From: Halorubrum sp. PV6
Lineage (GTDB): Archaea; Halobacteriota; Halobacteria; Halobacteriales; Haloferacaceae
Direction of reading: 5' to 3'
Length of the DNA stretch: 64,000 nucleotides
NCBI RefSeq assembly: GCF_003990725.2
Contig: NZ_CP030064.1
Location: 496,001-560,000, forward strand
Each line of letters opens with the position of its first letter. Position 1 is the first letter of the stretch. A program made the translations under genes and the position numbers. The notes under the pieces were generated by a model. It was not told the origin of the DNA and ran no database searches. It saw nothing but the letters and a program-made list of their open reading frames with translations. Positions 46,391 to 52,186 of the stretch are shown in pieces.

Positions 46391-46516
46391 ATCGTATAGC
46401 GCGATACGAAACTGCCACCCCGCTGCTCGCGTAACGTCTCCCGCTCGCCGAACCCGCCTTTCGCCGCCACGGCGTCTCCGTGGCGCTCTCTGACCACCAC
46501 TGCCTCTCGAATTGTT

Positions 46517-46530
46517 TTAGGGCTGCCTAA
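46517..46530. promoter_or_regulatory. DtxR/SirR-like iron operator 1
   Basis: TTAGGGCTGCCTAA is a palindrome of the form TTAGG-N4-CCTAA with one mismatched half-site base. It lies upstream of the flavoprotein/permease/ATPase operon, with a second copy 36 bp downstream. Archaeal DtxR-family iron repressors bind such sites. Confidence 0.75.
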
Positions 46531-46552
46531 GATTCGAAACCCTCTTAATCAT

Positions 46553-46566
46553 TTAGGGTGGCCTAA
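46553..46566. promoter_or_regulatory. DtxR/SirR-like iron operator 2
   Basis: TTAGGGTGGCCTAA ends 6 bp before the ATG at 46572, where transcription would begin on a leaderless mRNA. Binding here would block initiation when iron is plentiful. Confidence 0.78.
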
Positions 46567-46571
46567 ACCGT

Positions 46572-46649
46572 ATGGACCGAGAGGCCGACCGACTCGCCGG
46601 CACGCGTCGCGATCCGGTCGCTGCCGTCGCCATCGGAGGAGAAGCGTGA
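46572..46649 (+). CDS. Possible 25-residue leader peptide of the iron operon
   Basis: An ATG just after operator 2 opens a 25-codon frame (begins MDREADRLAG, ends IGGEA). Its TGA overlaps the GTG start of the flavoprotein gene (GTGA), and a GGAGGA Shine-Dalgarno-like sequence precedes that GTG. Leaderless transcription from the operator-proximal promoter would translate this peptide first and reinitiate on the flavoprotein. It is a small frame that could occur by chance, so coding status is uncertain. Confidence 0.45.
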   Translation: MDREADRLAGTRRDPVAAVAIGGEA

Positions 46650-47632
46650 GCGGCGCCGAAAGCGACGTGGTCGTGGTCGGCGCGGGGCCCGCCGGCTGCG
46701 CGGCCGCGGTGTTCGCCGCGCGCGACGGCCTCGACGTCGTCGTCTTCGACCGCGGTCGGTCGTCGCTCGCGCGCTGTGCGCACCTGTCGAACTATCCGGG
46801 CTTCCCCGCCGGCATCGACGTCGGGACGCTGTCGGACCTCATGCGCGAACAGGCCGAGCGAGCGGGGTGTACGGTCGTCGACGACCTCGTCGAATCGGTC
46901 GACCGCGCGGGGGACGACGCCGACCGCCCCGAGGATCAGAGCGGGCGGTTCGTCGTCACCCCCCAGGAGGGCGCACCCGTCACCGCCGCCCGAGTGGTCG
47001 CCGCGACGCGCTACGACGGCGAGTACCTCCGCGGCCTCGACGACGACGACGCGCTGTTCGCACGTCGGGACCGCGGCGAGGAGACGGAGGAGACGTTCGA
47101 CCGCGAGTACGCCGACCGCGACGGGACCACCGCTATCGACGGGCTCTACGTCGCCTCGCCGTCCGACGCCGACCGGCAGGCGATCACGGCCGCGGGACAG
47201 GGCGCCCGCGTCGGAAAGCGGGTCGTCGCCGACGCGCGGGTCGACGAGGGCTGGTGGCCCGCGGCGGCGGAGGGAAGAGACTGGGTCCGCCGCGAAGCCG
47301 AACTCGGCGACGAGTGGAGCGACCGCGAGCGGTGGGTCGAGTGGTTCGACGCCACCCACGCCGACGGGCCGGTCGACCCGGACTCGGAGCGGTTCGCACG
47401 GGTCCGCGATGCCGCGGTCGAGGCCGAACGCTCCTCGCACGTCGACGCAGACGAGGAGGCCGCCCGCGCGGCGGCCGGACACCGAGCCCTCGCCGCACAC
47501 CTCGATCCGGAAGCGGTCGTCGCGGCGCACGGGGCGGACGCGCTGCTCGACGCGATGGACGACGAGGCGGTCGCGGCGCACGCGGCCGCCGGCGGGCGAA
47601 CCGTCGAGCGCGACGAGGAGGCGACGCGATGA
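46646..47632 (+). CDS. FAD-only thioredoxin-reductase-like flavoprotein of the iron locus
   Basis: A 328-residue protein. The dinucleotide motif is DVVVVGAGPAGCAAAVFAAR, followed by HLSNYPGFPAG, a thioredoxin-reductase hallmark. The second FAD contact is GLYVASPSDADRQAITAAGQ. The usual NADPH-binding Rossmann insert and the CxxC redox pair are missing: only ~60 residues separate the two FAD parts. About 130 residues of helical, charged sequence follow, rich in Trp near the start. It is the first substantial gene of the operon, coupled by ATGA to the permease. A role in ferric-siderophore reduction or release is an inference from context. Confidence 0.8.
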   Translation: MSGAESDVVVVGAGPAGCAAAVFAARDGLDVVVFDRGRSSLARCAHLSNYPGFPAGIDVGTLSDLMREQAERAGCTVVDDLVESVDRAGDDADRPEDQSGRFVVTPQEGAPVTAARVVAATRYDGEYLRGLDDDDALFARRDRGEETEETFDREYADRDGTTAIDGLYVASPSDADRQAITAAGQGARVGKRVVADARVDEGWWPAAAEGRDWVRREAELGDEWSDRERWVEWFDATHADGPVDPDSERFARVRDAAVEAERSSHVDADEEAARAAAGHRALAAHLDPEAVVAAHGADALLDAMDDEAVAAHAAAGGRTVERDEEATR

Positions 47633-49716: not shown

Positions 49717-49755
49717 CGCAGTTCGGCGCCCGGTGCCGTTCAGGGCCGCCAGTCT

Positions 49756-49769
49756 TTAGGTAGACCTAA
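49756..49769. promoter_or_regulatory. DtxR/SirR-like iron operator 3
   Basis: TTAGGTAGACCTAA is a strong TTAGG-N4-CCTAA palindrome, upstream of the binding-protein gene. Confidence 0.78.
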
Positions 49770-49791
49770 AAATCGGAGCCGTTAAGTTGTT

Positions 49792-49805
49792 TTAGGGTAG
49801 CCTAA
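49792..49805. promoter_or_regulatory. DtxR/SirR-like iron operator 4
   Basis: TTAGGGTAGCCTAA lies 36 bp after operator 3 and ends 4 bp before the ATG of the binding-protein gene. The same 36-bp spacing is seen in the first pair, suggesting paired repressor binding. Confidence 0.8.
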
Positions 49806-49809
49806 AAAT

Positions 49810-51057
49810 ATGCCCAACGACGAAGTACCCGCAGCGTCGACCCGCAGAGCGTTCGCGAAGTACGGTGGCTCGGTCGCCCTCGGCGGCCTCCTCGCCGGCT
49901 GCTCCGGCGGTTCCGGCTCCGACTCGCCGGACGCCGACGAAAACGAGTCGGCACCCGCAGACGACGGTTCGGGCGACTCTTCGGACGGTTCGTCGGGCGA
50001 GAGCGAGGACGCAGCGGACGAGCGGTACACGGCGTCCATCTCGCCCATGGGCGAGGTCGCGTTCGAGTCGGCGCCGGAGACCGTGTTCACGCGTCTGACC
50101 CACCACGCGGGCATGGCGTTCGCGCTGGGGCGGGGAGACGACGTGACCGCGCTCCACGCCCCCGACTACTACGACGGCCTCTGGAACCAGTTTGTCGAGC
50201 GGCTCCCCGGCGTCTCGCTCGACTGGTCGGGGCTGTACTCCTCGTGGCAGCCGGACAAAGAGAAGCTCTACGCGCTCGACAGCGACGTCCACCTCGCCGA
50301 CCCCGCGTGGATCACCCGGCAGGACGCGTGGAGCCCCGAGGACATCGACGAGATCGCCGAGCGTGTCTCGCCGTGGTTCGGCAACTCGCTGTCCGACCGC
50401 CACCAGGACCCGACGGGCGAGTGGGCGGGCGACTACCAGTACTACGGGCTCTGGGAGCAGTTCGAGATCGTCGCCGACGCGTTCCGAGAGCGCGAGCGCT
50501 ACGAGGCGCTCGCGGCGGTCCACGACGACCTCCTCGCGACGATCGAGGAGGGCCTGCCGCCGGAGTCGGAGCGCCCGACCGCGGTCATGATCGCCGCCCA
50601 CGACATCGAGAGCATCTACGCGTACACCCTGAGCAACCCCGGCTTCCTCACGTCGCACACGCGCCCGCTCGGCCCGCACGACGCGTTCGAGGGGAGCGTC
50701 GAGTCGGGGACGATCGTCGACTTCGAGACGATGCTCGAAGCCGACCCGGACGTCATCCTCTACCTCGGCGGCTTCGAACCGGGAACCGACATGGCCGGTC
50801 GCCGGGCGGCCTTCGAGGAAGACCCGGTCGGCTCGGAGATAACGGCGATCAAGAACGACCGGATGCACCCACAGGGCGCCCGGTATCAGGGCCCCGTCCT
50901 GAATCTCTTCCAACTCGAGATGACCGCGAAGCAGTTATACCCCGACGAGTTCGGCGCCTGGCCGCGCTACGAGGAGGGGCCGTACCCGGAGATACCCGAA
51001 GCGGAACGGCTGTTCGACCGCCAGCGCGTCGCGGACGCCATCAACGGGGACCTGTAG
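49810..51057 (+). CDS. Tat-lipoprotein iron/siderophore substrate-binding protein
   Basis: A 415-residue periplasmic-binding-protein-type receptor. The N-terminus has a twin-arginine motif TRRAFAKYGGS followed by a lipobox LLAGC, so it should be exported folded and lipid-anchored. An acidic Ser/Asp linker (~40 residues) follows, then the mature type III binding fold: YTASISPMGEVAFESAPETV, FETMLEADPDVILYLGGFEP and RMHPQGARYQGPVL. It delivers iron-siderophore or haem to the FecCD permease encoded upstream. It starts a second operator-controlled unit. Confidence 0.92.
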   Translation: MPNDEVPAASTRRAFAKYGGSVALGGLLAGCSGGSGSDSPDADENESAPADDGSGDSSDGSSGESEDAADERYTASISPMGEVAFESAPETVFTRLTHHAGMAFALGRGDDVTALHAPDYYDGLWNQFVERLPGVSLDWSGLYSSWQPDKEKLYALDSDVHLADPAWITRQDAWSPEDIDEIAERVSPWFGNSLSDRHQDPTGEWAGDYQYYGLWEQFEIVADAFRERERYEALAAVHDDLLATIEEGLPPESERPTAVMIAAHDIESIYAYTLSNPGFLTSHTRPLGPHDAFEGSVESGTIVDFETMLEADPDVILYLGGFEPGTDMAGRRAAFEEDPVGSEITAIKNDRMHPQGARYQGPVLNLFQLEMTAKQLYPDEFGAWPRYEEGPYPEIPEAERLFDRQRVADAINGDL

Positions 51058-51231
51058 ATGCGCGCCCGCGAGTGGGCCGTCGCGGCGAGGTACGGCGACC
51101 CGGAGGCGTACGACCTGCCGACCCTCCGGACGTTGCGGGTCGAACGGAGCGACGACGGCCTCGCGTTCGCGGCCGTCGACAGCGACGAGCCGTTCATCGC
51201 GGCGGAGAAGCCGGTCCGGGTGCGTCGGTGA
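51058..51231 (+). CDS. Small protein (57 aa) coupled to the binding-protein gene
   Basis: The ATG follows the binding-protein TAG immediately (TAGATG). The product is a 57-residue soluble polypeptide beginning MRAREWAVAARYGDPEAYDL, with a two-strand pattern near LRTLRVERSDDGLAFAAVDS. Its TGA overlaps a following GTG (GTGA). Codon composition (G/C-ending third positions) fits real coding. No family is recognised; conservation downstream of iron-receptor genes would settle it. Confidence 0.6.
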   Translation: MRAREWAVAARYGDPEAYDLPTLRTLRVERSDDGLAFAAVDSDEPFIAAEKPVRVRR

Positions 51232-51377
51232 GCGCGTTCGGGCTCGGTGACGAGGCGGCGGAACCGGCCGGAGCCGGGCCGACGGCGGACCGAAGCGACT
51301 ACCACGGTTCGCGGCCCCCGACCGGTATGGCTATCGACAGCGACGACTCGCGGCTCGGACGGGGGGACGACCGATGA
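51228..51377 (+). CDS. Possible 49-residue protein linking the small protein to the second flavoprotein
   Basis: A GTG overlaps the preceding stop, and its own TGA overlaps the ATG of the next gene (ATGA at 51374-51377), forming an unbroken translational relay. The sequence is Gly/Asp-rich and disordered-looking (start MSAFGLGDEAAEPAG), so a folded function is doubtful. It may serve mainly for coupling. An alternative is that the flavoprotein is translated from its own ATG and this frame is incidental. Confidence 0.45.
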   Translation: MSAFGLGDEAAEPAGAGPTADRSDYHGSRPPTGMAIDSDDSRLGRGDDR

Positions 51378-52186
51378 GCGAGGACGGAGCGCCAACGCGC
51401 GTCGCGTCCCCGACCGACGGCGACCCCGACTCGTACGAGTCACGCGACGTGGTCGTCGTCGGCGGGGGCGTCGCCGGCCTCTCGGCGGCCGTGTTCACGG
51501 CTCGACAAGGGCTCGACACGCTCGTCGTCGACTCGGGCGAGTCGATACTCCGGCGGAACGCGCACTTGGAGAACGTTCCGGGGTTCCCGCTCGGCGTCAA
51601 CGCGCGCCAACTCCTCGACCTGTGTGGCGAACAGGCCGAACACGCCGGCGCGGACCGGCTCGACGCGCGGGTCACCCAACTCGCCACCGTTGCTGATTCG
51701 GGCGACGACGCGACCGACGGCCCTCGGTTCGTCGTCCACACCGACGGCGGCGACCGGATTCGAACCCGGTTCGCCGTCGCCGCGACGAAAAACGAAGTGG
51801 GCTACCTCGACGGGATCGACGGGGTCGGCATCCTCGACCGCGGAAAGTCGTACGTCGACGCGGACGAGCGCGGTCGGACCGGCGTCGACGGACTGTACGC
51901 GGCGGGGCGGCTCGCGGAGAAACCGCATCAGGCGGCGGTGTGTGCGGGTCACGGCGCCGAGGTCGGCGTCACCATCCTGGAGGCGGCCGACCGGGGCTTC
52001 TACCACGACTGGGTCGCGCCGGACGGGTACTTCACCGACCGCGACCGGCCGGTCCCGCCGGGCTGTGAGGAGATCGACGCCGACGAGCGCCGCGAACGCG
52101 AAGCGGCCTCCCGCGAGGCGATGCGCGAGCGGTTCGCGGCGCCCCACCCCGACCCGCAGGAGACGCATCCGAGCGTCGAGGAGTGA
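51374..52186 (+). CDS. Second FAD-only thioredoxin-reductase-like flavoprotein of the iron locus
   Basis: A 270-residue paralogue of the 46646 product. DVVVVGGGVAGLSAAVFTAR binds the ADP part of FAD, AHLENVPGFPLG matches the thioredoxin-reductase loop, and GLYAAGRLAEKPHQAAVCAG is the second FAD motif. There is no CxxC and no NADPH domain. The C-terminal ~70 residues (FYHDWVAPDGYFTDRD ...) are unlike thioredoxin reductase. Electrons, if it is redox active, must come from a partner such as ferredoxin or from a substrate. Its placement at the end of the binding-protein operon mirrors the first copy at the start of the permease operon. Confidence 0.8.
   Translation: MSEDGAPTRVASPTDGDPDSYESRDVVVVGGGVAGLSAAVFTARQGLDTLVVDSGESILRRNAHLENVPGFPLGVNARQLLDLCGEQAEHAGADRLDARVTQLATVADSGDDATDGPRFVVHTDGGDRIRTRFAVAATKNEVGYLDGIDGVGILDRGKSYVDADERGRTGVDGLYAAGRLAEKPHQAAVCAGHGAEVGVTILEAADRGFYHDWVAPDGYFTDRDRPVPPGCEEIDADERREREAASREAMRERFAAPHPDPQETHPSVEE

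Follow-up and report, generated by a model that had tools for sequence, protein, structure and literature searches.

The closest described counterparts of the arrangement reported here are the coupled leaderless ORFs of mycobacteria. In mycobacteria, a leaderless transcript opens with a small ORF, the TGA of this ORF overlaps the RTG of the annotated gene, and the layout is sometimes more conserved than the peptide (Shell et al. 2015, PMC4633059). Mycobacterial MIRU elements also carry a coupled ORF (review PMC12548453). In Haloferax, termination-reinitiation acts at ATGA and GTGA overlaps with a strict distance dependence (Huber et al. 2019, PMC6728339; 2023, PMC10666635). A gap of ~20 nt almost abolishes this coupling, and 15 nt of the upstream gene suffice for coupling in E. 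coli (PMC10666635). SD motifs in haloarchaea serve reinitiation and hardly new initiation (PMC6728339), and haloarchaeal BRE and TATA motifs have been described (PMC4983044).

The Halorubrum locus resembles the mycobacterial systems (PMC4633059) in that a mini-ORF TGA overlaps the downstream start and the peptide is less conserved than the layout. It differs in being archaeal and in that the same frame bridges back to the upstream gene, so that two predicted transcripts would lead to one junction; its frame conservation, moreover, was measured over 23-27 loci. MIRUs are repeated and apparently mobile (PMC12548453), whereas the Halorubrum spacer sits at one locus. The ATGA/GTGA overlaps are shared with Haloferax, yet the Haloferax studies concern pairs of ordinary genes (PMC6728339, PMC10666635), and six terms for a bridge or for upstream mini-ORFs are absent from PMC10666635. 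Searches of open-licence PMC papers found no report of an archaeal bridge ORF of this kind.

The locus lies in a 64,000-nt window, the whole stretch of DNA analysed, from a 3.04-Mb haloarchaeal genome whose closest named relatives are Halorubrum. The gene order is first flavoprotein, permease, ATPase, receptor (PF01497), 57-aa ORF, 49-aa ORF and second flavoprotein, after which a TrmB-type regulator is encoded on the opposite strand. Domain searches placed the second flavoprotein in the thioredoxin-reductase type. The features are as follows.

46516-46531 and 46552-46567: twin palindromes before the first-flavoprotein unit
46572..46649, + strand: 25-codon mini-ORF behind the twin putative iron boxes, with a leaderless-type ATG; its TGA overlaps the first-flavoprotein GTG (GTGA)
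46646..47632, + strand: first flavoprotein (domain searches)
49755..49770, + strand: iron-box-like palindrome TTTAGGTAGACCTAAA upstream of the receptor, 0 mismatches
49791..49806, + strand: second iron-box-like palindrome TTTAGGGTAGCCTAAA, immediately before the receptor ATG
49810..51057, + strand: receptor, a substrate-binding protein (Peripla_BP_2, the 'iron receptor'; Pfam PF01497, E 2.9e-11)
51055-51057, + strand: receptor stop codon TAG
51058..51231, + strand: conserved 57-aa small protein gene (homologues and codon positions); its ATG at 51058 abuts the receptor TAG
51228..51377, + strand: 49-aa 'bridge' ORF, from GTGA (51228-51231) to ATGA, with frame retained and sequence not
51288..51301, + strand: conserved BRE/TATA-like block GACCGAAGCGACTA within the bridge ORF, with AA at -34/-33 and TA at -27/-26 from the mini-ORF ATG
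51327..51377, + strand: leaderless-type mini-ORF of 16 codons, MAIDSDDSRLGRGDDR; its TGA overlaps the flavoprotein ATG, and it is present in 27/27 loci with the block
51374..52186, + strand: second flavoprotein, a TrxR-like FAD protein of 270 aa, starting at ATGA (51374-51377)

A preliminary description had pointed to a relay of three junctions (TAG/ATG, GTGA and ATGA), and its coordinates proved exact. The junctions of the locus are of the type associated with coupling, that is, a stop/start overlap of 4 or 1 nt or a gap of a few nt. The accompanying argument that three such junctions are improbable by chance was rejected, since 4-nt overlaps are common in haloarchaea; in Haloferax volcanii they occur in 354 of 2,511 co-directed pairs (PMC10666635). 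In 464 kb of the host genome, 44% of 267 start codons are followed by A. A 377-codon open frame (50244-51377) that overlaps the receptor gene has the 49-aa frame as its last part, so the openness of the 49-aa frame in a single genome says little. What raises the locus above chance is conservation, not the rarity of its junctions.

A full-length ORF of 57 or 58 aa was found at a comparable place in 28 of 52 Halorubrum genomes (the host's own and 27 others, with 67-79% identity). In the measured loci the receptor stop and the start of this ORF are -1 to 0 nt apart, and the ORF's own stop lies within (A/G)TGA in 28/28. In 22 equal-length aligned sequences, mean pairwise differences per codon at positions 1/2/3 were.094/.077/.256, so that third positions were ~3 times more variable than first or second; the flavoprotein, as a control, gave.069/.039/.263. 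A search with a 25-member profile detected relatives in 78/392 genomes and 27/95 genera of the order. The codon positions thus bear out the earlier proposal that this ORF is of the translated type, and by this measure it is a genuine protein gene under purifying selection.

The 57-aa protein and the 25 members had 0 matches in Pfam, NCBIfam and PDB. An AlphaFold2 model built from 14 sequences contained a helix and three strands, in agreement with the strand-like sequence described earlier, with a pLDDT of only 67. A Foldseek search with this weak model gave no match at E ≤ 0.001, and because of the low pLDDT and the lack of a match no fold is claimed. Like the zinc-finger u-proteins of Haloferax (PMC10716476), the protein is haloarchaeal, uncharacterised and shorter than 70 aa; unlike them, the protein in the window contains neither cysteine nor a C(P)XCG motif, and a u-protein identity was dropped. 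The gene had been described as coding for a small protein overlooked through length cut-offs. It is real, but a relative is annotated as 'hypothetical protein' in 8 of the 10 RefSeq plasmid records that hold one.

We propose that the 57-aa ORF is a real gene and that the 49-aa ORF is probably not a protein gene but a translated spacer, which would sustain translational coupling and hide a leaderless promoter. A spacer of the bridge kind lies before the flavoprotein in 23 of 28 Halorubrum loci. The bridge counts leave out the other five: two loci with no spacer, in which the flavoprotein ATG lies on the 57-aa stop (L015, L023), and three with no flavoprotein next door (L017, L019, L025). The part of the bridge ahead of the mini-ORF, its upstream half, has a length divisible by 3 in 22/23 loci, compared with 11/20 for a control spacer between the ATPase and receptor genes. 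This control was drawn from 31 tried loci, of which 20 were used and the others dropped where the ATPase stop or the receptor start was not found automatically.

Parsimony counts of length changes were made on two trees, each built from one gene. On the flavoprotein tree, the upstream half underwent 11 length changes, of which 1 was off a multiple of 3; the mini-ORF underwent 11 with 0 out of frame, and the control spacer 11 with 5 out of frame. On the receptor tree the corresponding figures (changes/out of frame) were 14/1, 12/0 and 14/8. The two trees disagree, so the numbers of independent changes are approximate, and recombination may inflate them. In these counts the L014 mini-ORF has a length of 48 nt; a point change makes it one codon short and gives a TGATG junction. 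An unbroken chain between the 57-aa stop and the flavoprotein was present in 21/23 loci. On the sequences compared, the spacer retains its reading frame and two overlapping junctions while its amino acids drift.

The most conserved stretch of the spacer is the block GACCGA[AC]G-N4-T[AT], which is followed by an ATG at exactly 39 nt in 27/27 loci. One of these, with an altered flavoprotein motif (L016), was recovered through the block search, and in four (L064-L067) the 57-aa gene is lost or broken. The mini-ORF that opens at this ATG has 15-24 codons and ends on the flavoprotein start in 27/27 loci, through ATGA in 26/27 and TGATG in L014. Across 52 Halorubrum genomes, the combined block and ATG pattern gave 31 hits, 26 at this spacer, and the reversed control gave 0. 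A mobile, MIRU-like element had been considered and was dropped, the pattern being essentially single-copy per genome in the 52 genomes. The AA and TA of the block fall where haloarchaeal BRE and TATA elements belong. Starts of 267 genes in the host genome were enriched in A at -34/-33 and in T at -29 to -27, and this profile and the 39-nt spacing both fit the distance of a leaderless promoter with its TSS on the AUG. The spacer therefore appears to hold an embedded leaderless promoter, which we treat as a candidate. SD-like runs near the flavoprotein ATG are weak: matches of at least 5 nt were found in 12/27 loci (shuffled, 10%) and of at least 4 nt in 26/27; in the window, no SD-like run of 4 nt precedes this ATG.

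In the proposed mechanism, the flavoprotein would be translated mainly by termination-reinitiation. On a long, iron-regulated receptor transcript, ribosomes ending the 57-aa gene would reinitiate at (A/G)TGA, translate the bridge ORF and reinitiate once more at the flavoprotein ATGA. A second transcript would start at the internal promoter; ribosomes loading on its leaderless AUG would translate the mini-ORF of 15-24 codons, which shares the bridge's frame, and would reinitiate at the same ATGA. Since coupling in Haloferax is all but lost with a gap of ~20 nt, coupled genes that lie 105-215 nt apart should become uncoupled if the spacer were left untranslated, and it would therefore have to stay translated. 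That the bridge is in fact translated is suggested by the conservation of its frame. We lean towards the broader view that the frame is selected for being translated, not for its content, and forms a ribosome bridge with an embedded promoter through which iron-regulated and independent leaderless transcripts feed one flavoprotein start; receptor stubs, described below, would then point to a general route by which leaderless operons withstand the loss of genes.

The strongest alternative is that only the internal leaderless promoter and the mini-ORF matter, with an upstream half of the bridge that is ordinary intergenic DNA, open by chance. The retention of the mini-ORF junction in 27/27 loci, including the four with the 57-aa gene lost or broken, would follow from this, and so would the loci in which the upstream half has failed. 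The preliminary description had expected no frameshift or stop in the 49-aa frame of close relatives, an expectation that did not hold: L011 carries a frameshift and L013 an in-frame TAG, and in L064 the start junction is lost, the 57-aa remnant ending in CGATAA with the chain to the bridge broken. Against this alternative stand the length changes of the upstream half, of which only one (out of 11 on the flavoprotein tree, out of 14 on the receptor tree) shifted the frame, its lengths, which are multiples of 3 more often than those of the control spacer (22/23 compared with 11/20), and the (A/G)TGA kept at every 57-aa stop; we consider the alternative unlikely.

A functional small protein or regulatory peptide encoded by the 49-aa ORF, as put forward earlier, is very unlikely. 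The peptide does find the window itself and 12 others of its genus (13 rows) at E 1.3e-4 or better, and a core around DRSDYxGSRAPTGMAIDSDDSRL is common to one clade. However, this conserved core coincides with the promoter-like block, over which differences at codon positions 1/2/3 were.311/.259/.173; third positions are thus the least variable, the opposite of coding constraint. The remainder of the ORF is flat (.151/.214/.183 in 4 sequences,.372/.347/.370 in 8 and.433/.383/.367 in 3), as is the mini-ORF (.127/.155/.128 in 9 sequences), although these flat signals come from short sequences and the first ten mini-ORF codons lean mildly to the third position (.081/.117/.183). Between clades the peptide is almost wholly different. 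The codon positions of the 49-aa ORF gave no signal of amino-acid-level selection, and on this evidence it is no ordinary protein gene. Peptide matches in 42/97 genomes at E ≤ 0.1 were rejected as evidence; beyond the 13 rows, they look like composition matches.

The receptor and first-flavoprotein transcription units each have a pair of TTTAGGnnnnCCTAAA palindromes ahead of them, spaced by 36 nt. We take palindromes of this type to be DtxR-family iron boxes. At ≤2 mismatches the window contains 4 matches, where 0.13 were expected, and exact sites number 11 genome-wide, five of them clustered at C1:175882-184893. A palindromic, putative iron box before a transcription unit is the arrangement of a DtxR-type regulon; regulators and a ferR signal are mentioned in PMC11349517. 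The palindrome search of the window found no iron boxes ahead of the second mini-ORF, the one before the second flavoprotein, so flavoprotein synthesis from that promoter may be iron-independent.

The first flavoprotein is preceded by a comparable mini-ORF, which looks like an in-frame remnant of a deleted receptor gene. In four loci (L041, L044, L046, L048) a receptor gene of 420-423 aa precedes the first flavoprotein with an ATGA junction, and the window's mini-ORF at 46572-46649 resembles the start and end of that gene. A different stub, of 27 codons, occupies this place in L049; it too is of the leaderless type, lies behind twin putative iron boxes and is still coupled to the first flavoprotein. 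The two stubs would represent two separate in-frame internal deletions of a receptor gene, each sparing the start and the coupling junction. By analogy the second mini-ORF might also be a decaying receptor-gene stub, but it lacks iron boxes, occurs in 27/27 loci across the genus with fixed promoter spacing, and in no relative was a full gene seen between block and flavoprotein, which makes this reading scarcely credible.

Returning to the proposed translated spacer, natural deletions around the bridge were found in several genomes. In G018 the start of the 57-aa ORF has been fused to the bridge by a deletion, and the resulting frame of 51 codons still ends on the flavoprotein ATGA. In G033 (L068) the frame continues into the flavoprotein itself, a natural fusion in which a single frame of 287 codons takes in the start of the 57-aa ORF, the promoter block and the flavoprotein. 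The 57-aa ORF of G029 is cut in frame to 28 codons; its link to the bridge is lost (TAA), and block and mini-ORF remain. They also remain in G005 and G037, two genomes with a truncated 57-aa gene and, within the stretch read, no receptor ahead of it. In three loci (L069, L070 and L077, in genomes G036, G019 and G039) the flavoprotein ATG lies directly on the receptor stop TAG. As far as genome comparison goes, these deletions agree with the reading of a retained frame and retained coupling.

If the proposal is correct, some 'small proteins' from ribosome profiling or conservation screens in leaderless organisms would be translated spacers, recognisable by a simple signature in which indels come in multiples of three and the amino acids are unconstrained. 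It would also offer a testable account of how haloarchaeal operons gain internal promoters or lose genes while downstream coupling is kept.

The surroundings of the 57-aa family outside Halorubrum were counted in 60 loci (L098-L156 and L083). Directly upstream of the relative lies a receptor (substrate-binding-protein) gene in 32/60, an XdhC gene in 9/60, a 142-aa gene in 3/60 and a flavoprotein gene in 1/60; in 15/60 no recognised gene is found there, and a CbiX gene is near 2 of those 15. The earlier suggestion of a small iron-locus component was too narrow as to iron, given the loci that follow XdhC. The mix of receptor, XdhC and other neighbours makes the family a general companion of metal- or cofactor-related loci, and not an iron-only part. 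Judged from these neighbours, the most likely role of the 57-aa protein is that of a small soluble accessory, still putative, at metal- or cofactor-import loci. The family is a compact, unnamed target with ties to transporters of the iron-siderophore type as well as to XdhC-type loci, which serve molybdenum-hydroxylase maturation.

XdhC/CoxI genes followed by the 57-aa family were seen in L145, L146, L148-L151 and L154-L156, and these neighbours suggest a link of the family to molybdenum-hydroxylase maturation. In L129, L140 and L141, a conserved protein of ~142 aa with no Pfam match is followed by the 57-aa relative and adjoins an aldehyde dehydrogenase.
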